A stretch of 64,000 bases of DNA from Candidatus Fimimorpha excrementavium (GTDB lineage: Bacteria; Bacillota; Clostridia; Lachnospirales; Lachnospiraceae): assembly GCA_018710785.1 (NCBI GenBank), contig DVJD01000108.1:1-64000 (forward strand), given 5' to 3'. This document shows positions 1,201 to 16,960 of this stretch, piece by piece. Under the pieces are notes generated by a model. It was not told the origin of the DNA, made no database searches, and was given only the letters and a program-made list of their open reading frames with translations. Every line of letters begins with the position of its first letter. The first letter of the stretch is position 1. A program made the position numbers and the translations under genes.

Positions 1201-2280
1201 ATGAAAAAAATAGTATGTATTGTGGGATGGTGTCTCCTTTTCTATGCCGCCGGAGCGTTTCAGCAGGAAGCGGTGCTGGCAGCAGTGCTGGCAGTCGGGA
1301 TATTGGGAATTTTACTGTTTTTGCTGTCCCGGTATCAGGCAGCTTCCATACGGGCGAATATCGTGATGGAAAGAACTTCCGGCAGAAAAGGGGAGTTGTT
1401 TAATGGAAAAGTTTGTCTGGAAAACGGTTCTGTCATGCCAGTGTCCCATTGCTTAATTCGGCTGGAATACGGTCATGAACAGTACGGAAAAAAGGAAATA
1501 CGGAATATGGAAGGAATGCTGAAAGGAAAGGGCAAAGCGGAGGTTTCGTTTTCCATTCAGCCCATGTATGCCGGTACGGCGCTCGTACGTATTTCTTCCA
1601 TAAAGGCATGGGATCTTTTGGGACTGTTCTGCGGTAAAAAGAGGATTCAGACACAGGAGCAGATCGTTGTATTTCCCAATGATTCCTGTATGAAAATCAA
1701 GGAAGAGAAGATGCTGACTGGACAGGGACGGGAAATAGATAAGGCAGGAAATATTCCGCCGGATGTTTTCCAGATTCATCCGTACCAGCCGGGAGAACCG
1801 CTGCGGGCGGTTCATTGGAAACTGACAGCAAGGCTGGACGATATGATGAGCCGCCAGTACAGCGACGAGGCGCAGTCTCTTCCCATTTTATATTTTCAGA
1901 GGGGAAAAATAGAAGGAATGAATCTGGAACGGATGGATGCCTATTGGGAAGTGGCGGCGGCGCTCTCAAAGGGACTTCTATATGCCGGGATTCCCCATGC
2001 AGTGGTTTGGAATGAACGGGAAGAGCTGTTTCACAGAATGGAGGTTCATACGGATAAAGACTTTGTGCTGACACTAAAGGAAGCAATGCAGTACAGCAGA
2101 GAAACGGAAGCGGATCGGCAGTCATGGCTGTATGAGAGACTTCGAAAAGAAAACGGGGAAACGGTCCCTCTGGTCATCATTGATCAAATGCTGCGGGTTT
2201 ATAAAGATGGAGAACTGATTGTGCAGTTTTCCTGGGAACGATATCGTCAGGAGATAGAAAAGAGGTGGGTTTCTGTTTGA
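1201..2280 (+). CDS. DUF58 domain-containing protein
   Basis: Two N-terminal hydrophobic segments; YQPGEPLRAVHWKLTARLDDMMSRQY DUF58 motif; next to MoxR. Confidence 0.9.
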   Translation: MKKIVCIVGWCLLFYAAGAFQQEAVLAAVLAVGILGILLFLLSRYQAASIRANIVMERTSGRKGELFNGKVCLENGSVMPVSHCLIRLEYGHEQYGKKEIRNMEGMLKGKGKAEVSFSIQPMYAGTALVRISSIKAWDLLGLFCGKKRIQTQEQIVVFPNDSCMKIKEEKMLTGQGREIDKAGNIPPDVFQIHPYQPGEPLRAVHWKLTARLDDMMSRQYSDEAQSLPILYFQRGKIEGMNLERMDAYWEVAAALSKGLLYAGIPHAVVWNEREELFHRMEVHTDKDFVLTLKEAMQYSRETEADRQSWLYERLRKENGETVPLVIIDQMLRVYKDGELIVQFSWERYRQEIEKRWVSV

Positions 2281-4610
2281 AAAATGAGAAAACAACCAGG
2301 GAGAAGCCCGGGATCCTATTTCAAAGCAGGGATTATCAGTGGACGGACAAAAAGGGAAACGCCATTGGGAGAATATTGGGAACCTATCTGTGCTATCTCA
2401 GCGGAGTATATGGAATACTGGCAGCAGCAACCATACTGGGAAAACTGAAATATGAAGAAATCATCGTGTATATTGCCGTATTTGTCATCGCCAGCATTCT
2501 TTGGGGATGGCTGTATGTAATTCGGGGCAGCCATCTGCTGATATGGTTCCTGGCATTTGGCATGACGGCAGCGGCTGTGTGGTTTCAAAGAGAATTTTTG
2601 CTGGGATTATGGGAGTCAGTCAATCAAGATAAATATGTGCTCTCAAGGCTGACAAGGCAGCAGGAGACCGTGTTTACAGTCGGGTTTATGGCCTGGGGAG
2701 CACTGCTTTTATATGAACTGACATTTCACATTCGATGCGGCATTTTGACTGTCTTGGGCATAGTGGGGGCAGTTGGCACTCAGATCTATCAGAAACTGCC
2801 GGTGCCCATGTATGAAATAGGATTTTTTCTGTTTTACCAAAGTGCAGCCTTTCTTCTCCATTATCAGTGGGCAGTGGGGAGACGCTCCCGTTATGCCGCA
2901 CTTAGAAAAAGTGATCCGGGACACGGACTTTTGCTTCTGGAGGGGGCTGTGGCATTGCTGCTTTTGGCCGGATCCTTTCTGGCATCCAGTCCGCTGCAGC
3001 CGACTTTGTTTCAGCTTCCGCTGGATGTAGAGCAATCCATTTCCAAAGGACTGTCGGATTTGTTTTGGAATGATGCGGAAGATGGTACGGTTAATAGAGG
3101 GAATCTTCGGGGAATAGACCGGGAACGCCTGCGGGTGACTTTGCCGGAACAGCCGGAAGAAGCCTTTTATCTGAAGGGCTTTACCGGGGGAGAATATACG
3201 GGCGATGGATGGGAAGAGGCGGATGAAAGCGCCTTTTACGCCAGCCTGGCCGGATCGGAAGACTTTCAGGGATACAGCACAGAGGATGTGACGGAGTTTT
3301 ATGAGGAATATACCTACCAGACGGCGGAAGATTTGCTGGGGGAGCTGGAAGTTGTCCCTCACATGGTGGAGACAGAAGAAATCGGGGGAGATCACAGATA
3401 TGAGCCGTATCTGTCCAGACAGACGGGGCAGGAGGAGCGGACCTATATCTTTGAGACATATCCCCAGCCGTGGATGGACAATATGGTATATTATACGGAT
3501 ATCGTAACGAATGGGTATAGTATGCTTTACTCCGGGACTTATGCTGCTGATATATATGAAGCTTATGCCGCAGACACATACACCCGTCTGCCTGCGGACG
3601 GATTATCCAGGCTGCGCAGTCTCTGTGGAAGCCATCCGGCAGAGACGAGGGATGCGATCACAAATCAGATCCTGGCGCTTCTGCGTCAGAATGCGGAATA
3701 TACCATCACGCCCGGAGAAATTCCGGCAGGGGAAGATGTGGCAGAATACTTCCTGTTTGACAGAAAGGCGGGATACTGTCAGCATTTTGCGACAGCGGCG
3801 GTTCTCATGTACCGCATGTATGGGATTCCTGCCAGATATGCCACCGGCTTTATCGCTTCCCCGGATTCCTTTACTCAGGCAGAAGACGGAACCTGGAATG
3901 CGGTTTTAAACGGGGGACAGGCCCACGCTTGGGCAGAAATCTATGTGGACTATATCGGCTGGGTTCCGGTGGAGACCACACCGCCCGGCAGTGTAATCGG
4001 AACAGAAAACGTCGGATATGGCCCAATGGAAGAACGAACGGAGGCAGCGGCGGCAGAAACGGAAACGGCTGAGACACCTACGGAACCGGAGACGGAGGCG
4101 ACCGAACCCAGGCCGACGGAGGCAGCGTCCACGGAAATCAGGGAAGAAAACCAGTATGGCGGAGAGGGGGCCTCTTCCCTTGAGACATATCTGATGACCC
4201 TTGTAAAGGGGGTTCTGATCCTTGGGGGAGCGGCTGTTCTGGCTCTGGCTGGGATACAAGGCATATCGGTCTATCGACAGCGGAGACTGGAAAAAAACCG
4301 GCAGTCCTCGGCCTCCAGGCTTCTGTGGCGTATGGTGGAAATGATGCACCTGATTGGAAAACTGAAAGAATATCGGGGAGATGAGGAGGATTTTCCCCAT
4401 GCGCTGGCAAAAGAAGTTTCGGGTGTTTCGGAAGAAGAAGTCCGGCATTTGGTCGGTTTGGCCATGCAGGAAAACTTTGGAAAAAATGCTGTGCCGAAGC
4501 AAGAGAGAAAATCAGCTGTGAGTACCTACAGAAAAGTCGCACGATACGTTTATGCAGCACTGGGGCCGATCAGACGGCTGTATTTTGGATATGTGAAAGT
4601 ATACGATTAG
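2265..4610 (+). CDS. Transglutaminase-like domain membrane protein
   Basis: Multiple TM segments, AGYCQHFATAAVLMYRMYGIPARYATGF ... HAWAEIYVDYIGWVPVETTP transglutaminase core; acidic linker then TM. Confidence 0.92.
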   Translation: MGFCLKNEKTTREKPGILFQSRDYQWTDKKGNAIGRILGTYLCYLSGVYGILAAATILGKLKYEEIIVYIAVFVIASILWGWLYVIRGSHLLIWFLAFGMTAAAVWFQREFLLGLWESVNQDKYVLSRLTRQQETVFTVGFMAWGALLLYELTFHIRCGILTVLGIVGAVGTQIYQKLPVPMYEIGFFLFYQSAAFLLHYQWAVGRRSRYAALRKSDPGHGLLLLEGAVALLLLAGSFLASSPLQPTLFQLPLDVEQSISKGLSDLFWNDAEDGTVNRGNLRGIDRERLRVTLPEQPEEAFYLKGFTGGEYTGDGWEEADESAFYASLAGSEDFQGYSTEDVTEFYEEYTYQTAEDLLGELEVVPHMVETEEIGGDHRYEPYLSRQTGQEERTYIFETYPQPWMDNMVYYTDIVTNGYSMLYSGTYAADIYEAYAADTYTRLPADGLSRLRSLCGSHPAETRDAITNQILALLRQNAEYTITPGEIPAGEDVAEYFLFDRKAGYCQHFATAAVLMYRMYGIPARYATGFIASPDSFTQAEDGTWNAVLNGGQAHAWAEIYVDYIGWVPVETTPPGSVIGTENVGYGPMEERTEAAAAETETAETPTEPETEATEPRPTEAASTEIREENQYGGEGASSLETYLMTLVKGVLILGGAAVLALAGIQGISVYRQRRLEKNRQSSASRLLWRMVEMMHLIGKLKEYRGDEEDFPHALAKEVSGVSEEEVRHLVGLAMQENFGKNAVPKQERKSAVSTYRKVARYVYAALGPIRRLYFGYVKVYD

Positions 4611-4617
4611 TCAAAAG

Positions 4618-4654
4618 AAAAGAGGGTGCTGCGAAATTCGCATCACCCTCTTTT
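4618..4654. terminator. Bidirectional hairpin terminator (short member of a repeated family)
   Basis: aaaagagggtgctgcgaaattcgcatcaccctctttt, between convergent genes. Confidence 0.85.
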
Positions 4655-4676
4655 GAATAAAAAGAATGGGAGTCAA

Positions 4677-5495
4677 TTACGGATTCAAATCAATTCCCTG
4701 AAACCAGTCGGCGCAAAATTCCTCAATTTTACCCTCATCGCAAGCTTTGGCAAGTTTGGGATCGATGGGAAGCTTGGCGAGAACCGGTATCTGATACTGC
4801 TCTGCGATGGAATCGATATGGCTTTCTCCAAAGACGGAAATTTTTTTATGACAGTCCGGACATTCCAGGTAACTCATATTTTCCACGAGCCCGAGAATGG
4901 GAATGTTCATCTGCTTTGCCATATTCACTGCCTTGGATACGATCATGGAAACGAGTTCCTGGGGGGATGTGACCACGATGATGCCATCTAAGGGGATGGA
5001 CTGGAAAACAGTGAGAGGCACATCACCGGTTCCGGGAGGCATGTCCACAAACATATAATCCACATCGCCCCAAACCACATCGGTCCAGAATTGTTTTACC
5101 ATACCAGCCAGAATCGGTCCTCTCCAGATGACAGGCACTTCTTCATTTTCCAGAAGAAGATTGACGGACATCACTTTTGTGCCATCGGAAGAAACGGCCG
5201 GATTCAGGCCGTCCTGGGAAGCAGTGGCGAGGCCATGGATTCCAAAAACCTTCGGAATGGATGGTCCGGTGATATCCGCATCCAAAATAGCAGTACGAAA
5301 TCCTTTTCTGCGGTACATGACTGCCATCATGGAAGTCACCAGGGATTTTCCAACGCCTCCTTTTCCGCTCACGATACCGATCACTTTATGGATATTGCTG
5401 GCAGCATTTGGCTTGTCAAACGTCGGTGCTGCCGTTCTTTGATCACATGTCTGCCCGCAGGAAGAGCAGTCATGGCTGCAACTTTGTTCACTCAT
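4677..5495 (-). CDS. Mrp/NBP35-family P-loop ATPase
   Basis: GKGGVGKSLVTSMMA, MFVDMPPGTGDVPLT, ENMSYLECPDC; N-terminal Cys-rich CSHDCSSCGQTC; start placed at MSEQSCSH. Confidence 0.93.
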   Translation of the reverse strand: MSEQSCSHDCSSCGQTCDQRTAAPTFDKPNAASNIHKVIGIVSGKGGVGKSLVTSMMAVMYRRKGFRTAILDADITGPSIPKVFGIHGLATASQDGLNPAVSSDGTKVMSVNLLLENEEVPVIWRGPILAGMVKQFWTDVVWGDVDYMFVDMPPGTGDVPLTVFQSIPLDGIIVVTSPQELVSMIVSKAVNMAKQMNIPILGLVENMSYLECPDCHKKISVFGESHIDSIAEQYQIPVLAKLPIDPKLAKACDEGKIEEFCADWFQGIDLNP

Positions 5496-6471: not shown

Positions 6472-7794
6472 TCAGCCATGGTAGGCAGACTGCCAAATTT
6501 GATAAAGAATCTGGCATCCGGGAAGAAAGTCCGATGTGGGGGAAGAAGAGCAGGATAAAATTAAGTCCAGCTCTTCTTTCTTTTCCGGCAGAATACCAAC
6601 ACGGATGCCATGCTGCAATGCCAGTTTTTGAAAGGCTTTGCCGGATAAAGGACAGGGAAGCGTCAGGGCAAGGCTGATACCGGCAGATCCGATGCGGATT
6701 TTGGCATCCTCTCCGAAAACGGTGCGGACCGCGCGATGCAGTTCCTTTAGCTTCCCGGAGTACAGACGGCGCAGTCTTCTGGTTTGGGCAACAAGGTGGC
6801 CGTCGCGTATGAACTGGCAGAGAGCGATCTGCTCCATTTTGGATGCGGTTTGATTATAACGGTCGGCGTGAAGACGGTACTGCCCCGACAATTCAGGGGG
6901 AAGTACCATGAAGCTTAAACGGATGGAGGGCAGAAGAAGGCGGGAAAAAGAACCGAGGTATACGACCCCCTGGCCGCCCGCCAGACTTTGAAGAGACGGG
7001 GTGGGGCGCTGCATATAGACAAATTCATTTTCATAATCATCTTCCAGGATAATACTTCCTTGTTCTGACGCATGACGGATTAATTCCATTCGGCGGGATG
7101 TGGGCATGATTTCTCCCCATTTTGTCATATGAGCCGGGGAGACATAGATGATTTCACTGTCTTTATCCCGATAGTGAATGGTAAAACCATGGTCTTCAAA
7201 GATGGAGATTCCCTGCAAAAAGGAGGGATTGGGAAAGGACACGGTCTTTCTGTCCGAAAACAGCGGGCACAAAATATGGAGCAGGCTCTGGATTCCGGCT
7301 CCGATCACGATATCATCCGGGGAGCAAAGGACGTTTCGGCGTTCATGGATATAGGAAGAGAGGACTTCGCGAAGTTCCAGTTCCCCCTGCGGCTCTCCAT
7401 AACTGAGAAGACGCTCATCCTGGCGGAGAGCATTTTTAATGTAGCGGCGCCAGATATCAAAATGAAAGCTTTCCTTATCTACCCCGGAAGAAGCAAAGTC
7501 ATAGCGGATGGGTGGTTCAGACTTTTTGGGAGAAGGGACAGGAGCCGTCTGCTTTTTAGCGATATCCGTGATATAGTATCCGCTTTGTGCCCGGGAAATG
7601 ATATAGCCGTCTGCGGCCAGCAAAAGATACGCTGTCTCCACGGAGGTTCGGCTGATCTGCAGCTCGGCGGCACATCTGCGCAGCGAGGGCATTTTAGCCC
7701 CGGGTTTTAATTTTCCTGACAGGATCAGATCCTTGTAATAGTGATAAACACGCATATATAAATGATTATTTTTATTATCCAGTTCCAGTGCCAT
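6472..7794 (-). CDS. MocR/PdxR-type transcriptional regulator (GntR HTH + aminotransferase-like domain)
   Basis: N-term wHTH GAKMPSLRRCAAELQISRTSVETAYLLL; PLP-fold region; start at MALELDNK. Confidence 0.9.
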   Translation of the reverse strand: MALELDNKNNHLYMRVYHYYKDLILSGKLKPGAKMPSLRRCAAELQISRTSVETAYLLLAADGYIISRAQSGYYITDIAKKQTAPVPSPKKSEPPIRYDFASSGVDKESFHFDIWRRYIKNALRQDERLLSYGEPQGELELREVLSSYIHERRNVLCSPDDIVIGAGIQSLLHILCPLFSDRKTVSFPNPSFLQGISIFEDHGFTIHYRDKDSEIIYVSPAHMTKWGEIMPTSRRMELIRHASEQGSIILEDDYENEFVYMQRPTPSLQSLAGGQGVVYLGSFSRLLLPSIRLSFMVLPPELSGQYRLHADRYNQTASKMEQIALCQFIRDGHLVAQTRRLRRLYSGKLKELHRAVRTVFGEDAKIRIGSAGISLALTLPCPLSGKAFQKLALQHGIRVGILPEKKEELDLILSCSSSPTSDFLPGCQILYQIWQSAYHG

Positions 7795-7907
7795 GGTCAG
7801 CCTCCCGTATTCTTCCGCTGATATTGAGAATGACCTCTTTTCTTTGCGGGTATTCAGTGGTATTCTAATAAATGGTGAAAAAAAATGCAAGAGGTGGAGG
7901 AAAAACA

Positions 7908-8771
7908 GTGAAAAAAATTGCAGTATTACAGGACCTGTCAGGACTTGGCAGGTGTTCCTTAACGGCAGCCATCCCGGTGATATCCGTCATGGGAGTGCAG
8001 GCATGTCCCCTGCCGACGGCCATATTAAGCAATCAGACAGGATATCCCAGTTTCTATTGTGAGGATTATACGAATAAAATTCAGTATTTTATCAGGGAGT
8101 GGAAAAAGCTTCAAATGGAACCGGATGGAATTTACACCGGTTTTTTGGCGGGAGAGCGGCAAGCGGAGGAAATTTTGAAATTTGTACATGCGTTTCGAAA
8201 CAAAGAAACGAAAGTGATTGTAGATCCCGTGATGGGGGATGGCGGAAAAAAATATGATTTTTTTACGGAGCACCTGTTGGAACAAATGAAAATGCTGGTT
8301 TCAGAGGCTGATATGATTACGCCCAATATCACAGAGGCACTGATTCTGTGCGGAGATGACTTGGAAGCTTCTTATCACAAACTGGAGATGCTGGACACAA
8401 AACCGGAAGCGTATCAAAGGGCAGTGGAAGAGGTTGGTAATTCGCTGAAAAATCGGTTCGGACTGGAAGCGGTTGTCATCACAGGAAATCATTATCAGAA
8501 CGGGACAGAAAATATGGTTGGAAATCTGATTATCCAGGGGCAGAAAAAGGATTGGGTAGAATCCTCAAAAGTAGGGGGAAGTTATTCCGGGACCGGGGAT
8601 TTGTTTGCCTCTGTCCTGAGTGCAGGACTGGTGAAAGGGGAATCTCTGCGAATATGTGCCGAAAAAGCAGTACGTATGCTGCGCGCTGCCATCGGTGATG
8701 CGGTGAAATCCGGAAGTGACCGGAATGACGGAGTAGAATTTGAAAAATATCTTTCGTATTTATGGGATTAG
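7908..8771 (+). CDS. pdxY: Pyridoxamine/pyridoxal kinase
   Basis: IAVLQDLSGLGRCSLTAAIPVIS, VDPVMGDGGKKY, GSYSGTGDLFASVL; probable GTG start after aggtggagg; divergent from MocR regulator. Confidence 0.85.
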   Translation: MKKIAVLQDLSGLGRCSLTAAIPVISVMGVQACPLPTAILSNQTGYPSFYCEDYTNKIQYFIREWKKLQMEPDGIYTGFLAGERQAEEILKFVHAFRNKETKVIVDPVMGDGGKKYDFFTEHLLEQMKMLVSEADMITPNITEALILCGDDLEASYHKLEMLDTKPEAYQRAVEEVGNSLKNRFGLEAVVITGNHYQNGTENMVGNLIIQGQKKDWVESSKVGGSYSGTGDLFASVLSAGLVKGESLRICAEKAVRMLRAAIGDAVKSGSDRNDGVEFEKYLSYLWD

Positions 8772-9359: not shown

Positions 9360-9968
9360 TTAACACGATGACCTTTTATCAAAGGCGGGATTGTAAGCAT
9401 AGAAATTTTTGGAATTCAGGTGATCCTGGGCGATTCCAAGTGCCTCGCCAAACCGCTGGAAGTGTACGATTTCCCGGGTACGGAGGAAACGGATGGGATC
9501 ACAGACTTCCGGGTCTTTTACAAGGCGCAGGATATTATCATACGTAGTTCGGGCCTTCTGCTCGGCAGCCATGTTTTCCATTAAATCAGTGATTACATCC
9601 CCCTTGGACTGGAATTCACAGGCATTGAATGGAATTCCGCCCGCAGCCTGCGGCCATAAGGCCAGGGTATGGTCCACATAATACTTATCAAAGCCAGAGG
9701 CTTTGATTTCCTCTGGAGTCAAATCTTTTGTCAGCTGGTAGACAATGGTACAGATTATTTCCATGTGGGCCAGTTCTTCTGTCCCGATATCTGTTAACAA
9801 AGCCTGACATTCCTTATAAGGCATGGTATATCTTTGAGAAAGATAGCGCATGGAGGCAGAGAGTTCACCGTCTGGTCCGCCGAATTGGCTTAAGATTACT
9901 TGAGCAATCTGAGGATTGCACTGTGTGATTTTTACCGGATATTGCAGTCGCTTTTCATAATTCCACAT
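9360..9968 (-). CDS. cotJC: Spore coat protein CotJC (manganese-catalase family)
   Basis: MWNYEKRLQYPVKI...AQVILSQFGGPDGELSASMRYLSQRY; downstream of CotJA/CotJB. Confidence 0.92.
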   Translation of the reverse strand: MWNYEKRLQYPVKITQCNPQIAQVILSQFGGPDGELSASMRYLSQRYTMPYKECQALLTDIGTEELAHMEIICTIVYQLTKDLTPEEIKASGFDKYYVDHTLALWPQAAGGIPFNACEFQSKGDVITDLMENMAAEQKARTTYDNILRLVKDPEVCDPIRFLRTREIVHFQRFGEALGIAQDHLNSKNFYAYNPAFDKRSSC

Positions 9969-10246
9969 CAGCAGTTACCTCCTACTTCCCATGGCCACGG
10001 TTCATGAATCCAGTGCCAGTGATTGGTTCCCAGCACCTGATCAGCCTGCAGCGGACCGAATTTATCATTATAGAGTTTCATAGCCTCTTTTCTGGCATGC
10101 ACGCATTTTTGATAATAAGCCAGTGCCTCTTCATCACAGGGATGGGTATCGAGATATAAAACAGCGTCATCCATGGCAAAACTGGATTCATTGATTTTTT
10201 TCATTACCATCTGTTTTTCCGTCATCTTCTGCACCTCCCTGTACAC
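9968..10246 (-). CDS. cotJB: Spore coat protein CotJB
   Basis: KINESSFAMDDAVLYLDTHPCDEEALAYY..., WHWIHEPWPWE. Confidence 0.92.
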   Translation of the reverse strand: MYREVQKMTEKQMVMKKINESSFAMDDAVLYLDTHPCDEEALAYYQKCVHARKEAMKLYNDKFGPLQADQVLGTNHWHWIHEPWPWEVGGNC

Positions 10247-10939: not shown

Positions 10940-13900
10940 GTGAAGATTTTGAAAGAACGGATTAATCAGTTGGCTCACGGAGCCGTACAATATGAGAAGC
11001 CCATGATAACGGTGACGCAGTCCAGCATTCAGGATACGGTGCCGGAAGGGATGACACAGCGGGCAGAGATAGGTGTGAAAAGCGAAAATGGTGTGCCGAT
11101 CCGGGGATTTTTATATTCTTCCCATGCCCGTGCATACGTAAGGCAGGACCAGATTATCGGAATAAAAGGCCAGATCGGATTGGAAATCAATGCTGCCGGA
11201 CTTACGGCAGGAGAGCAGATCAGGGGCCAGGTGCAGTTTGTCTATAATGGAGGGGAGATGGTTCTGCCATACTGTTTCCATATAGTGAAAGAGAAGGGAA
11301 CGGAGACAAAAAAGACACTGGAGACCATCCAGGAGTTTGCCGCGCTGGCAAAGGAAGAACCGGCGGAAGCCCTTCATTTTTTTTCGTCTGAACGATTTCT
11401 GGAGATGCCTTTTATGAAGGCAGGAAGTGACCGTACCCTGTACCGTGGACTGATGGAAGGCGGCAGTGAAGAGAGGGCCATGGAAGAGTTCCTTACGGCT
11501 GTGGGTGAAAAGGAGCCTGTGCGCCTTTCCCTGGCAGAAGGCAAAGGTATATTTGAAAATCCGGATAAAGACACATTTGGTGAGCTGATTATAGAAAAAA
11601 ACACATGGGGATATACAGCGCTGACGATGGAAAGCGATTCCCCTTGGCTTGTGCTGGAAAAAAAGAGGGCATTTGATTTTGACTTCGTGGAAAACCGTAT
11701 GGCTGTCCGCTATGTATTGGATGAGAAGCAGCTGCATGGCGGAAATAATATCGGTTTGATTACGGTGAGCACGGCAAGTCAGAGGCTTACGTATGAAGTT
11801 TATGTGAAGAAGGGAACCAGGAAAACGGAAAAAGGCCGTATGAGACGTGCAGACTGGTTTAAGCTGGAACAGCTCTATCTGGAGTACCAGGATAAAACAT
11901 ATGAAGACAAGCTGATTCTGGCGGCCATGGAAGGGGAAGTGGCCTCCCTGATTAAGCATTACCCCGATGAGCTTCGTCTGTATCTGCTGCGCTCCTGGCT
12001 CCACATGGAACAGAATCAGGGAAAACAGGCAGAAAAGCTGTTGAGTTGGGTGAAAGAACCGATAGCCAAGAGCCGGGATACCCAATTGGAAAACTATTGT
12101 CTGTATTTGTTTTTGAATGCCATGCTGACAGGGGAAGAGGCGGCCTTTGTCAATATGCAGAAATTGGTTCATAAGTATTTTGAAGAAAATGACAGTATTA
12201 TCTTGGCTCTATTGGAACTGCAGGTGAATCCGGAATATACAAAAAAACCGGAGATGGCATTGGAATTTTTGCGCAGACAGTTTGAAAAGGGGAGCAGAAG
12301 CCCACTCTTATATTCCATGGCCTGCCGTATTTTTTGCCACGAACCTGGGCTGCTTCATCAGATGGATGCCTTTGAGATTATGGTATTTTCATACGGGGCC
12401 AAGCGAAAGATCATTGGCAGAGACCTGCTCCTTCGCATGCTGGAGATTCCTGTTTTGCAGAAACAGTATCTCTCCGTGTATTTTACGATGCTGACAAAGC
12501 TGTATGAATACGAGGAGGAAGATGCTTTGCTGGGAGCCATCTGCAGCCTGCTGATTAAGACGGGAAGCGCCGGAGAAACGTATTTTCCATGGTATCAAAA
12601 GGGTGTGGAAAAAGATCTGAAGCTGACCAGTTTATATGAATACTATCTGTATTCGGTACCGGAAGAGTTTGATCAGTCTCTGCCTCAGCCGATTCTGATG
12701 TATTATTCTTATCAAAATGAACTGGATGATAAGAGCCGTTTGCTTCTGTATTCCAATATTTTGAAGTATCATGGAATTGGAAGCAAAATATATGAAAGTT
12801 ACAGTGCTCAGATGGAGGAGTTCGCCATCAGCCAGCTGCTGGAAGGAAGAACTTCGGAAAAATTAGTTCCGCTGTATGCCACAATCCTGCATCCCGATAT
12901 TGTAGATGAGGCTTTGGCTGAGGGACTTCCGGATTTGCTGTTTGCGAAAAAGATCACGACGGCTGCGCCATTTGCCAAGCGGATGATTGTCCGCTACCCG
13001 CAGCTGAAAAAAGAGATTTCCGTTCCGGTAAAGAGGGGAACTGCCTGTGTGCCGGTTTATACGAAAAATACGGTGATTCTGATTGAAGATGCTTATGGAA
13101 AACGGTATTCGGACAGTCAGATTGATGCGAAACCGCTGATGAATGACGGACGTCTTCTAAAAAGGTGTTGGGAACTTTGCCCCGGACACTTGATGATGCG
13201 GATCGCAAAAGCGGAAGATCTGGAGCATGCGCCGATACAGACAGCGGAGCAGCTGGAACTGGCCAAGGGCCTCCTATTGGAGGGGGCGCTGGAAGAAGAA
13301 TATCAACAGTTTTTGCTTTCCAGGGTGATTGAATACTGTTATTCCTCCAATGATGGGGCGGCTTTGGACTGCGACAGTCTGTTTATGGAGCTGGATGCCG
13401 GAAAATTAAGTGAGAGGGAGCGTATCTGTGTCATCGAGATTCTGATACGCAGTGAATACTATACGACGGCATATCAGCTGGTGCATACGTATGGATACGA
13501 CGGAATTAAGATGGAGCATCTCCTGAAACTGGCAGTGCGGATGATTCAGGAAAAACTGTATGAAAAAAATGATTTTCTTGTGGGCCTCTGCTATTATCTG
13601 TTTGTTCACAACCAGTATAATGACGGAACGCTTTCCTATTTGGCGGCCTTTTACAATGGACTGACCCATTCCATGTATAAGCTTCTGGTGAAAATACGTA
13701 AAAGCAGTGCGGATGCCAAAGATCTGACGGAACGGGTATTGGCACAGATGATGTTTACCGAACAGTACGAAAAGATGGACCAGGTGTATCAGTGGTATAG
13801 CGAAGGCAAACAGGTGCTGGAAGAGATGCGTATGGCATATCTGGTTTTAAAGTGCGATGCTTATTTTATGGAGCGGGAAAAGGTGGATCCGGAAAAAATA

Positions 13901-14491
13901 CGGGCAGTGGAAGTTCTCATTCTCCAGAAAGAGTGGGAAGAAATCCCATCCGTCTGCAGCTTTGCGCTGCTTACGCTGTATAGCCGCCAAAAGAGGCTGG
14001 CAGAAAAAGAAAAGAAGATTGCTTCGGAAGTAATCAAATTACTGACCGCGGAAGGGTTGGTATTATCCTGCTTCTTAGCTTTGGCAAAAGAGGTGGTTCT
14101 GCCATATGAACTGGAAGGCCGTGTGATTTTGGAATACAGGAAGGATACCGTGAAGCGGGTGGCGGCAGAGGGAAGACGTCTGCCGGATGGGACTTATATA
14201 AAACGGGAAATGCAGCAGATTTATCCGGGTGTATTTACAAAAACATTTCTGCTGTTTGAAGATGAGAAAGTGGATTTGAAACTGGTGGGCTGGAAAGAGG
14301 ATGGCAGCCAGGAGACAGAAGAAAGAAGAATAACCGGTGAACATGTTTATATGCGTAACGGAAGCCGGTTTGAGCAGCTGAACCAGATGATGCGTTTTGC
14401 GCATCAAAAAGAATGGAATAGGCTGGAAGAATGCCTGAAAGAGGCAGAAATTACAGACGGAATAATTGAAAAACTGTTCCCGATGATATAG
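10940..14491 (+). CDS. DUF5717-like large protein (N-terminal beta domains + helical repeats)
   Basis: 1183 aa ORF (GTG start); N-terminal MKILKERINQLAHGAVQYEKPMITV; two beta-rich segments then about 800 aa of helical repeats. Confidence 0.8.
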   Translation: MKILKERINQLAHGAVQYEKPMITVTQSSIQDTVPEGMTQRAEIGVKSENGVPIRGFLYSSHARAYVRQDQIIGIKGQIGLEINAAGLTAGEQIRGQVQFVYNGGEMVLPYCFHIVKEKGTETKKTLETIQEFAALAKEEPAEALHFFSSERFLEMPFMKAGSDRTLYRGLMEGGSEERAMEEFLTAVGEKEPVRLSLAEGKGIFENPDKDTFGELIIEKNTWGYTALTMESDSPWLVLEKKRAFDFDFVENRMAVRYVLDEKQLHGGNNIGLITVSTASQRLTYEVYVKKGTRKTEKGRMRRADWFKLEQLYLEYQDKTYEDKLILAAMEGEVASLIKHYPDELRLYLLRSWLHMEQNQGKQAEKLLSWVKEPIAKSRDTQLENYCLYLFLNAMLTGEEAAFVNMQKLVHKYFEENDSIILALLELQVNPEYTKKPEMALEFLRRQFEKGSRSPLLYSMACRIFCHEPGLLHQMDAFEIMVFSYGAKRKIIGRDLLLRMLEIPVLQKQYLSVYFTMLTKLYEYEEEDALLGAICSLLIKTGSAGETYFPWYQKGVEKDLKLTSLYEYYLYSVPEEFDQSLPQPILMYYSYQNELDDKSRLLLYSNILKYHGIGSKIYESYSAQMEEFAISQLLEGRTSEKLVPLYATILHPDIVDEALAEGLPDLLFAKKITTAAPFAKRMIVRYPQLKKEISVPVKRGTACVPVYTKNTVILIEDAYGKRYSDSQIDAKPLMNDGRLLKRCWELCPGHLMMRIAKAEDLEHAPIQTAEQLELAKGLLLEGALEEEYQQFLLSRVIEYCYSSNDGAALDCDSLFMELDAGKLSERERICVIEILIRSEYYTTAYQLVHTYGYDGIKMEHLLKLAVRMIQEKLYEKNDFLVGLCYYLFVHNQYNDGTLSYLAAFYNGLTHSMYKLLVKIRKSSADAKDLTERVLAQMMFTEQYEKMDQVYQWYSEGKQVLEEMRMAYLVLKCDAYFMEREKVDPEKIRAVEVLILQKEWEEIPSVCSFALLTLYSRQKRLAEKEKKIASEVIKLLTAEGLVLSCFLALAKEVVLPYELEGRVILEYRKDTVKRVAAEGRRLPDGTYIKREMQQIYPGVFTKTFLLFEDEKVDLKLVGWKEDGSQETEERRITGEHVYMRNGSRFEQLNQMMRFAHQKEWNRLEECLKEAEITDGIIEKLFPMI

Positions 14492-14507
14492 AAGAGAGGG
14501 TGGATAC

Positions 14508-15776
14508 ATGGAAGGACTGATTCTGGGGTATGATCTATGTAATGATTACTGCAGAATAAGCTGTTACGAGCCAGGGCAGCTGGAACCGGTGGATCTGGCA
14601 TTTTCGGAGGAAGAAAATCCGTATGTGGTGCAGACCGCCATATGCAAAAAAAGAAATAAAGAAGAGTGGCTGCTGGGTGAAGAAGCCTATAAGCTGGTTC
14701 TGACAGGGGAAGGCATTTTGGTTGATAAACTGATCCGCCTGGCAGGGAAAGAGGGAACGGCTACGATTGAAAACAAATGCTATTCGGCCAAAGAGATGCT
14801 GACGACGTTTCTTTCTCTGACACTGAAGCAGACCTATCACAAATATGGAACCAGAGAGATCCGAATGCTGGTGATCACGGTGCAGACCATGAATCTGCAG
14901 CTTTTGGATACCTTGGTTGGATGTACGGATGCACTGAATATTCCGCGGGAGAAGGTACATATCATCAGCCATACGGAAAGTTTTATGTACTATGTGACAA
15001 GTCAGAAAAAGGATTTGTGGGCACATCAGGCAGTCTTGTTCGATTTGAATTCGGAGGGGCTTCACTATTATGAACTGGGAATGACCCGGGGCATTCAGCC
15101 CAATGTGGCACGGGTGGAGCACGAGCCGTTGGAAGAAGGCTTCTCTCTGGATATTCTGGAACATCCTTCCGGAAGAAAACTGGCGGATTCCATCATGTTA
15201 TCCTGCGGAGAGCGGATGATGCAGAAAAAATTGATTTCATCGGTATATCTGACAGGGAAAGGGATGGATCGCTGTCAGGACTGGGCTTCTGATTTTTTAA
15301 AGATGGCATGCAACAAAAGAAGGGTATTTCTCTGCCAGAATTTATTTGCCAAGGGTGCGGTATATGCAGCTTGTGATTATGTGAGAGAAAAGACAGCCTA
15401 CCCCTATGTGGGACTTTGCGAAGGACGAATCCAGTCCAATGTATCCATGGAAGTCATGCATGAGGGAAAGAAGAAAAAGCTGGTTCTGGCAGCCGAGGGG
15501 GGAAACTGGTATGAGACCAAATCGATGGTGGATGTCATACTGGATGACATGGATTCCCTGTTTCTGACGGTGACAAAACACGGGGAGAAGGAAGGACGCA
15601 TGGTGGAGATTCCGCTTCATGAGTTCCCCAAAAGGCCAAACCGTACCACGAGGATATCGGTGATTCTCACCTTTACATCCGAGCGGGATGTAACGGTACG
15701 AGTGGTAGACAGGGGATTCGGAGAGTTTTTTCCGTCAGAAAATGCGATGATCAAAAGGGAAATTCATTTGGCATGA
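14508..15776 (+). CDS. DUF5716-like protein, possible actin/HSP70-fold ATPase
   Basis: GLILGYDLCNDYCRISCYEP; VVQTAICKKRNKEEWLLGEEAYK; LVITVQTMNLQLLDTLVGCTDALNIPREKVHIISHTESFMYY - order resembles HSP70/actin subdomains. Confidence 0.75.
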   Translation: MEGLILGYDLCNDYCRISCYEPGQLEPVDLAFSEEENPYVVQTAICKKRNKEEWLLGEEAYKLVLTGEGILVDKLIRLAGKEGTATIENKCYSAKEMLTTFLSLTLKQTYHKYGTREIRMLVITVQTMNLQLLDTLVGCTDALNIPREKVHIISHTESFMYYVTSQKKDLWAHQAVLFDLNSEGLHYYELGMTRGIQPNVARVEHEPLEEGFSLDILEHPSGRKLADSIMLSCGERMMQKKLISSVYLTGKGMDRCQDWASDFLKMACNKRRVFLCQNLFAKGAVYAACDYVREKTAYPYVGLCEGRIQSNVSMEVMHEGKKKKLVLAAEGGNWYETKSMVDVILDDMDSLFLTVTKHGEKEGRMVEIPLHEFPKRPNRTTRISVILTFTSERDVTVRVVDRGFGEFFPSENAMIKREIHLA

Positions 15777-15804
15777 GTTTGACAGAGAAAGGATGGAAGA
15801 ATAG

Positions 15805-16620
15805 ATGGGTCAATACCTGTTATGTCAGAAGACGGCTCAGATGCCGTATGAGATAGAAGAGATGGGACTGCACATCTACTCGGCAGAAGAATTATGCTAT
15901 TATATTTATCATAATCTGCCCATGATCGATGATTCGTTTATCAATGAGGCGCTGATCGAATTCATCAGAAAAGATCTGGATATGCCGGTGCTGGCAGAAA
16001 AGGTCAGCCGCTGCTTTCAGTCTTCGGCTGATTTGGACAGCACGCTTCTGGTTCTCCTTCGGAATGTGGGATATTATACAGAAGAGGAAATTACAGAATT
16101 TCAGGAAATGATGATTCGGCTGCACCGGAAAAATCCTCTGGAACGGACAAAAGACCGGGCGGATCTTTTGTTTTCTTACCGAAAATATCAGAATGCCGTG
16201 AAGGCGTATGGAGCCATCGTCAGCCAGGGAAGAGACCTTCGGGTAAAAGCCGGTTTTTATTCGGAAGTTCTGCAGCATATGGCGGTTTGCTGTCTTCATT
16301 TATATATGTATCCGGAGACGCTTGACTGCCTGAAAGCCGCCTATGAGGAAAATAAGGACCGCCGCATTCTGCAGCAGATTTATGATTTCTGTGTGCTGAC
16401 CAGACAGGCGCTTCCGAAAGATTTATTTCTGGATATTGAAGATGAAGTTCTGATCAATTGGCAGAAAGATTATTGTGAAGCACAGGATATCTCCATGCAG
16501 GAGATGGAACATGGAAGCACGGCCGGGATTTTTTCTCTGGAGCCGGAAGAACGGGAAGCGGCTTTGGAGGAATTTCTGAAGAAAGAGAAAAAGCTGTACC
16601 GGGAGATGACTGCAGAATAG
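15805..16620 (+). CDS. Conserved hypothetical helical protein (third gene of DUF5717/5716 locus)
   Basis: Co-directional 271 aa ORF, 28 nt downstream of the DUF5716 ORF; TPR-like helical composition. Confidence 0.75.
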   Translation: MGQYLLCQKTAQMPYEIEEMGLHIYSAEELCYYIYHNLPMIDDSFINEALIEFIRKDLDMPVLAEKVSRCFQSSADLDSTLLVLLRNVGYYTEEEITEFQEMMIRLHRKNPLERTKDRADLLFSYRKYQNAVKAYGAIVSQGRDLRVKAGFYSEVLQHMAVCCLHLYMYPETLDCLKAAYEENKDRRILQQIYDFCVLTRQALPKDLFLDIEDEVLINWQKDYCEAQDISMQEMEHGSTAGIFSLEPEEREAALEEFLKKEKKLYREMTAE

Positions 16621-16662: not shown

Positions 16663-16960
16663 TTGACAAATGAGAGAAGTCTGATTATGATATTACGTAG
16701 TAAAGGTGATGAGGAAGAGGAGTATGGCATTGTCCCTGACAGAGAGAGCAGTCCATCGGCTGGAAGACTGCTTGAGGAAGAGATGGCAGAAGGTAGCTTC
16801 TAAACTGCAGAGCTGAACATGACAGTAAGTTCTGACGGCAGCCCCCGTTACAGGGTCATGCGGTGAATATGCCGCAGTGAGGAGCATATGATGCTTGAAT
16901 AAAGGTGGTACCGCGTTTATGACGCCCTTTACATCCATGGTGATGTAAGGGGCTTTTTTT
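16663..16960 (+). promoter_or_regulatory. T-box leader upstream of valS
   Basis: T-box core tgaataaaggtggtaccgcg (16896-16915), then terminator hairpin gccctttacatc..gatgtaaggggcttttttt; stem-I-like region upstream. Confidence 0.92.

Follow-up and report, generated by a model that had tools for sequence, protein, structure and literature searches.

Several described systems resemble parts of the locus treated here. Ssz1 of the yeast ribosome-associated complex is a lid-less Hsp70 which binds ATP but does not hydrolyse it and which is held in a fixed complex with a partner dedicated to it (PMC7083937). Theme 2 of the GAP1-N2 GTPase-centric systems brings together HSP70, GrpE and a TPR/FNIII protein (Kaur et al. 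2020, PMC7159879), and CnuD of the CoCoNuT systems carries an Hsp70-like nucleotide-binding domain (NBD) and substrate-binding domain (SBD), described as degenerate, together with helical repeats (PMC11090510). We compared these with a locus of three genes, here called P1, P2 and P3, in Candidatus Fimimorpha excrementavium (Lachnospiraceae). The sequence analysed, in the following called the window, consists of 64,000 nucleotides (nt) from the forward strand of contig DVJD01000108.1 (GCA_018710785.1). P1 belongs to the Pfam family DUF5717 and P2 to DUF5716, to neither of which Pfam assigns a function. Judged from sequences and models, the locus rather likely encodes a nucleotide-independent pseudo-Hsp70 adaptor on a dedicated scaffold, reduced from an eight-gene multi-Hsp70 machine. 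Its predicted role is probably in protein quality control or assembly.

The literature searched, whose coverage excludes most subscription journals and bioRxiv, contained no description of the operon or of the DUF5716 and DUF5717 families. Full-text search for both names returned DUF5716 once, in an incidental mention, and PMC11019930, which surveys duplicated DnaK in bacteria, does not mention Lachnospir-, Clostridi- or VWA in its main text.

The pseudo-Hsp70 of the three-gene locus

The three genes are as follows, with lengths in amino acids (aa) and the basis of each call in brackets.

10940-14491, + strand: P1, predicted scaffold, 1183 aa, DUF5717_N and DUF5717 (open reading frame (ORF) call, Pfam)
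14508-15776, + strand: P2, putative pseudo-Hsp70, 422 aa, DUF5716 (ORF call, Pfam, model, profiles)
15805-16620, + strand: P3, helical protein, 271 aa (ORF call)

All three lie on the same strand, with 16 nt between P1 and P2 and 28 nt between P2 and P3. A first-pass annotation, made from the letters of the window, had given these lengths, gaps and directions and quoted peptides of the products, all of which we recovered unchanged. Its labels 'DUF5716-like' and 'DUF5717-like' were confirmed by Pfam matches of P2 to DUF5716_C (3e-99, above cut-off) and of P1 to DUF5717_N (9.3e-244) and DUF5717 (1.4e-65). No Pfam family matched P3 above its cut-off, and NCBIfam had no match for P2 or P3 and one chance-level match for P1. 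Relatives in other families of the order are eight-gene operons of constant order, namely P1a, P1b, the Hsp70 A, the GrpE-domain protein D, the P2 orthologue E, the Hsp70 F, the Hsp70-VWA protein G and the TPR protein H. P1 thus corresponds to two genes there, P1a of ~390 aa and P1b of ~900 aa.

The fold of P2 was assessed by structure prediction and by profile searches. The AlphaFold2 (AF2) model of P2 has a mean predicted local distance difference test score (pLDDT) of 93.8 and a predicted template modelling score (pTM) of 0.91. All 50 matches listed by Foldseek for this model are Hsp70-family proteins, the best being to DnaK (E 2.0e-19; probability 1.00 and TMq up to 0.67 among the matches). 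A single-sequence search of the PDB with P2 gave no match, and profiles were required: a profile of P2 and its orthologues matched DnaK at 3.6e-17 across the NBD and the beta subdomain of the SBD (SBD-beta), and a profile built from Lachnospiraceae P2 only matched DnaK at 3.5e-8 across the N-terminal half. Furthermore, intermediate homologues match both DUF5716_C and HSP70, as does orthologue E (2.2e-33 and 1.8e-14, respectively). An actin-type NBD followed by an SBD-beta, together with sequence homology to Hsp70, is what places a protein in the Hsp70 superfamily, and P2 has both. We regard the assignment of P2 to the Hsp70 fold, as an NBD core plus SBD-beta, as firm on the basis of the model. 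The HSP70/actin fold proposed for the 422-aa protein by the first-pass annotation was therefore right. The parts of P2 used below are the following.

14508-15401, + strand: P2 residues 1 to ~298, predicted actin/Hsp70-fold NBD lacking subdomain IIB, which is deleted near residue 230 (DnaK alignment, model)
14526-14552, + strand: degenerate phosphate-1 loop GYDLCNDYC, DnaK GIDLGTTNS (alignment)
14970-14972, + strand: H155 where DnaK has the catalytic E171 (alignment)
15042-15059, + strand: degenerate phosphate-2 loop DLNSEG, DnaK DLGGGT (alignment)
15405-15770, + strand: P2 residues ~300-421, SBD-beta-like domain without helical lid, D401, G403 and G405 invariant (alignment, model, Foldseek)

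The catalytic site was surveyed in 46 P2 homologues, against 27 A, F and G paralogues. In the 46 P2 sequences the GTTN of the phosphate-1 loop is replaced and GGGT is lost. The commonest residues at the K70 position are V (17), L (15), Y (4) and I (4), lysine not being among the residues listed, and at the E171 position H (37), R (4), Y (4) and F (1). The A, F and G Hsp70s, in contrast, retain every catalytic residue (27/27). At its active-site positions the P2 of the window has N12, D13, Y14, I76, H155, the phosphate-2 loop DLNSEG and K251. The combination that marks a canonical Hsp70 ATPase (phosphate loops, K70, E171 and T199) was found neither in the 46 P2 sequences nor in E. When P2 is aligned to the DnaK of its own genome, residues 210-288 of the latter (subdomain IIB) and the lid have no counterpart. 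The DnaK-type hydrophobic linker is likewise gone, and no SBD-alpha lid is present. By its sequence, P2 is a pseudo-Hsp70 and a predicted non-ATPase. The first-pass annotation had called it an ATPase and had itself named missing nucleotide-binding residues in all homologues as what would speak against this; with the catalytic residues missing across the 46 homologues, the ATPase label is unsupported.

Subdomain IIB is the region where GrpE contacts DnaK. Its loss from P2 is consistent with the lack of a GrpE-like gene: at the three-gene locus itself, where we looked, the GrpE-domain gene D is missing.

Distribution and origin from an eight-gene operon

P2 and P1 are each present in 34 of the 37 genomes sampled from the window's family. 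Among 24 genomes each standing for another family of the order, P2 was found in 11 and P1 in 12, and neither was found in any of 14 control genomes. With wider sampling, matches above the Pfam cut-off were confined to the window's family (4 of 300 phylum genomes for P2, 16 of 391 class genomes for P1). The titles of matching database records name Lachnospiraceae (including Hungatella) or other Clostridiales. No relative was found in plasmid or viral collections, the viral search being a single-protein scan. The locus is near-universal and single copy in the sampled genomes of the family, and it carries signs of vertical descent.

In each of 37 distinct three-gene loci, P1, P2 and P3 stand next to one another and run in the same direction; the median gaps between them are 15 and 6 nt. 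The ratio of nonsynonymous to synonymous substitution rates (dN/dS) was calculated for pairs with an estimable dS, which P1 did not have. Against locus L031 it was 0.028 for P2 and 0.044 for P3, and against locus L032 it was 0.069 for P2, with dS near saturation. Purifying selection on P2 and P3 is strong. Together with the conservation of the arrangement in 37/37 loci, this means that the three-gene unit is not due to chance.

Pfam assignments in the eight-gene locus L047 are HSP70 for A (6.2e-78), GrpE for D (7.1e-11), DUF5716_C and HSP70 for E (as given above), HSP70 for F (1.6e-63), HSP70 (8.1e-92) and VWA for G, and TPR for H. Those in locus L053 agree, but there G is in two pieces and no Pfam family matched the fragment of H that was scanned. 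E is catalytically dead as well, yet it retains subdomain IIB. In the Hsp70 tree, E and P2 form one group (support 100) with F as its sister (99), and the sister of all Lachnospiraceae P2 (100) is the E from the full operon of genome G039, of family f4. The P1 tree places f4 identically. Since the Lachnospiraceae set nests inside the eight-gene system in these trees, we firmly take the three-gene locus, on sequence grounds, to have been derived by reduction from an eight-gene multi-Hsp70 operon, with the pseudoenzyme surviving the enzymes. According to the trees, the dead Hsp70 arose next to an active sister and the other Hsp70 genes were lost later. In the genome search, no A-, F- or G-type Hsp70 was among the matches listed for the 37 Lachnospiraceae genomes, and the window's genome had one true DnaK among the matches listed.

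A second lineage (genome G051) retains just P1a, P1b and E at its locus. This reduction to the same set makes P1 plus P2 look like the core of the system. P1a and P1b have been fused twice, in Lachnospiraceae and separately in locus L062, and the two independent fusions support the view that both work as one unit.

Further observations concern these loci. L053 comes from G039, whose family is the nearest to Lachnospiraceae, and at 2205-5384 on the minus strand G (Hsp70-VWA) and H are each split into two ORFs, which may reflect either early decay or an assembly error. The window's own genome encodes a second odd Hsp70-like protein of 566 aa (PF00012, 2.8e-11) at 1127-2827 on the minus strand of locus L105 (G000:C7), next to ORFs of 623 and 363 aa without Pfam match.

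Two candidates were set aside. Matches of the P1b profile outside the order are weak (e.g. E 2.5e-11 for an open frame of 338 aa in family f151) and were read as unrelated helical repeats because they have no further component of the system next to them. A coiled-coil protein of ~392 aa, which has a membrane hairpin of two helices at its centre and matches no Pfam family, lies just 3' of P3 in 18 three-gene loci and follows H in one of the eight-gene loci (L042, 10105-11307, is among these 19). The genus of the window lacks this protein, and some families have it but not the system; we therefore do not count it as a core part.

The scaffold, the TPR-like partner and the borders of the locus

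The AF2 model of P1 (pLDDT 85.3, pTM 0.55) contains the following domains.

11006-11287, + strand: P1 residues 23-116, predicted Ig-like beta domain 1 (AF2 model, Foldseek)
11525-11812, + strand: P1 residues 196-291, predicted Ig-like beta domain 2 (AF2 model)
11828-14089, + strand: P1 residues 297-1050, predicted TPR-like alpha-solenoid in two parts split by a small beta region at 669-732 (AF2 model, weak Foldseek)
14120-14335, + strand: P1 residues 1061-1132, predicted C-terminal beta domain (AF2 model)

With E values between 6e-7 and 4e-4, Foldseek matched the beta part to ciliary central-apparatus proteins, SPD-2 and Ig chains; it matched the helical part, weakly, to TPR/solenoid scaffolds. 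As the TM-scores are low in both cases, only domain types are claimed. According to the model, P1 is a scaffold of Ig-like domains and an alpha-solenoid. The two beta-rich N-terminal segments followed by helical repeats, as read earlier from the sequence, agree with the model, which adds the beta regions 669-732 and 1061-1132. P3 was correctly described as helical: its N-terminal motif IYSxEELCYYIYxN is conserved, its C-terminal half is TPR-like, and it matches TPR proteins as well as H, the TPR protein encoded in the eight-gene operon.

The true start of P1 is probably the TTG at 10949, giving 1180 aa, because the family consensus starts with M-x-E-R-I and an AGGTG lies a few bases 5' of this TTG. 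A T-box leader (Rfam RF00230, 116.8 bits) was found at 16700-16932 on the plus strand, between P3 and the next gene, and P3 is therefore most likely the last gene of the transcription unit. Directly 3' of the leader is an 879-aa aminoacyl-tRNA synthetase-like ORF (ValS by sequence). On the other side, directly upstream and on the opposite strand, a spore-coat pair occupies 9360-10246 (minus strand), consisting of CotJB (2e-30, Pfam) and a manganese-catalase-like gene of CotJC type. Farther away, at 6472-8771, is a divergent pair which by eye appears to encode a MocR-type regulator (minus strand) and a pyridoxal kinase (plus strand).

Proposed mechanism, alternatives and comparison with known systems

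We propose that P1, P2 and P3 would form a soluble complex. P2 would no longer cycle on ATP, and its locked, lid-less SBD-beta may bind a client or partners weakly and constitutively. P1 could supply a client-specific platform, and P3 may serve as a TPR link to a further factor. For the ancestral machine we picture E/P2 as a fixed adaptor that would bring clients into position for three active Hsp70s, A, F and G, with D recharging them. The P2 of Lachnospiraceae could act alone as a scaffold or holdase, or the client could be handed over to the general DnaK. Three points weigh against this proposal. D8 is retained in 42 of the 46 P2 sequences and D194 in 34, so that P2 may still bind Mg or nucleotide weakly. 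The SBD-beta loops of P2 are unlike those of DnaK, which makes peptide binding uncertain. There is also no J-domain gene in the operon, and the HPD motif occurs only twice in the eight-gene operons, both times inside Hsp70 F.

The first of these points leads to the alternative that P2, like Ssz1, binds nucleotide without hydrolysing it, and that by sensing the nucleotide it acts as a switch on the P1 scaffold. Besides D8 and D194, the conserved G250 and G283-A284 remain in P2; lid-less Ssz1 binds ATP but leaves it unhydrolysed (PMC7083937), and Ssz1 (6sr6) is among the Foldseek matches of P2. Both phosphate loops, K70, G342 and all of IIB, which helps to hold the nucleotide in Hsp70s, are however missing or replaced, and we consider the switch unlikely.

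A conflict or defence system related to the GAP1-N2 GTPase systems or to CoCoNuTs is suggested by the HSP70, GrpE and TPR/FNIII protein shared with GAP1-N2 theme 2 (PMC7159879) and by the degenerate Hsp70-like NBD/SBD of CnuD (PMC11090510). Yet Pfam found neither a GTPase nor a nuclease nor a GAP1 domain among the operons examined, GAP1-N2 (PF20013) occurred in 0 of 61 genomes, and PADLOC gave weak matches only, which are explained by HSP70 or TPR similarity. Nor does defence fit a near-universal single copy in one family with signs of vertical descent and no relatives found in the plasmid and viral collections scanned. Both the defence reading, which we hold to be very improbable, and a mobile-element reading were rejected on these grounds.

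That P2 is a cytoskeletal filament protein (MreB/FtsA/ParM) on a scaffold would fit its actin-type NBD, but the Hsp70 SBD-beta that follows, the nesting of P2 with Hsp70s in the tree and the lack of a Pfam actin-like match leave this next to no credence. Thus, the 'chaperone-like or cytoskeletal ATPase with a dedicated scaffold' of the first-pass annotation stands as to the Hsp70 fold and the scaffold, and fails as to the ATPase and the cytoskeleton. Least credible of all is the idea that the three genes have no function and are decaying: the locus has lost four of the eight operon genes and the Hsp70 its active site, but dN/dS is low, adjacency holds in 37/37 loci and the genes persist in 34/37 genomes.

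DUF5716 and DUF5717, two large families of no known function with a single copy in almost all genomes sampled from a major gut family, hereby gain a fold, an ancestry and a testable role. We lean slightly towards the wider view that Lachnospirales-type bacteria have a dedicated, undescribed multi-Hsp70 machine, shrunk in Lachnospiraceae to a dead Hsp70 and a scaffold with an important nucleotide-independent job. The locus also offers a natural example of a pseudo-chaperone that has survived the loss of its active partners, and the comparison of eight-gene with three-gene loci makes Hsp70 function without ATP testable in bacteria.

Compared with known systems, CoCoNuTs need a McrB-type GTPase and CnuC/McrC, for which there is no Pfam match in the window genes or operons. 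GAP1-N2 systems need a GTPase and GAP1, neither of which is here, whereas the present loci have a pseudo-Hsp70, an Hsp70-VWA fusion and a DUF5717 scaffold. DnaK and BiP share with P2 the NBD core, the SBD-beta fold and gene ancestry, and P2 differs from them in having no catalytic residues, no IIB, no DnaK-type linker and no lid. Ssz1 binds ATP and partners a J-protein, whereas P2 has also lost IIB and no J-domain motif was found in the operons. Like Ssz1, P2 is lid-less and without the residues for hydrolysis, as far as sequence and model indicate, and by analogy Ssz1 appears to be its best functional parallel.

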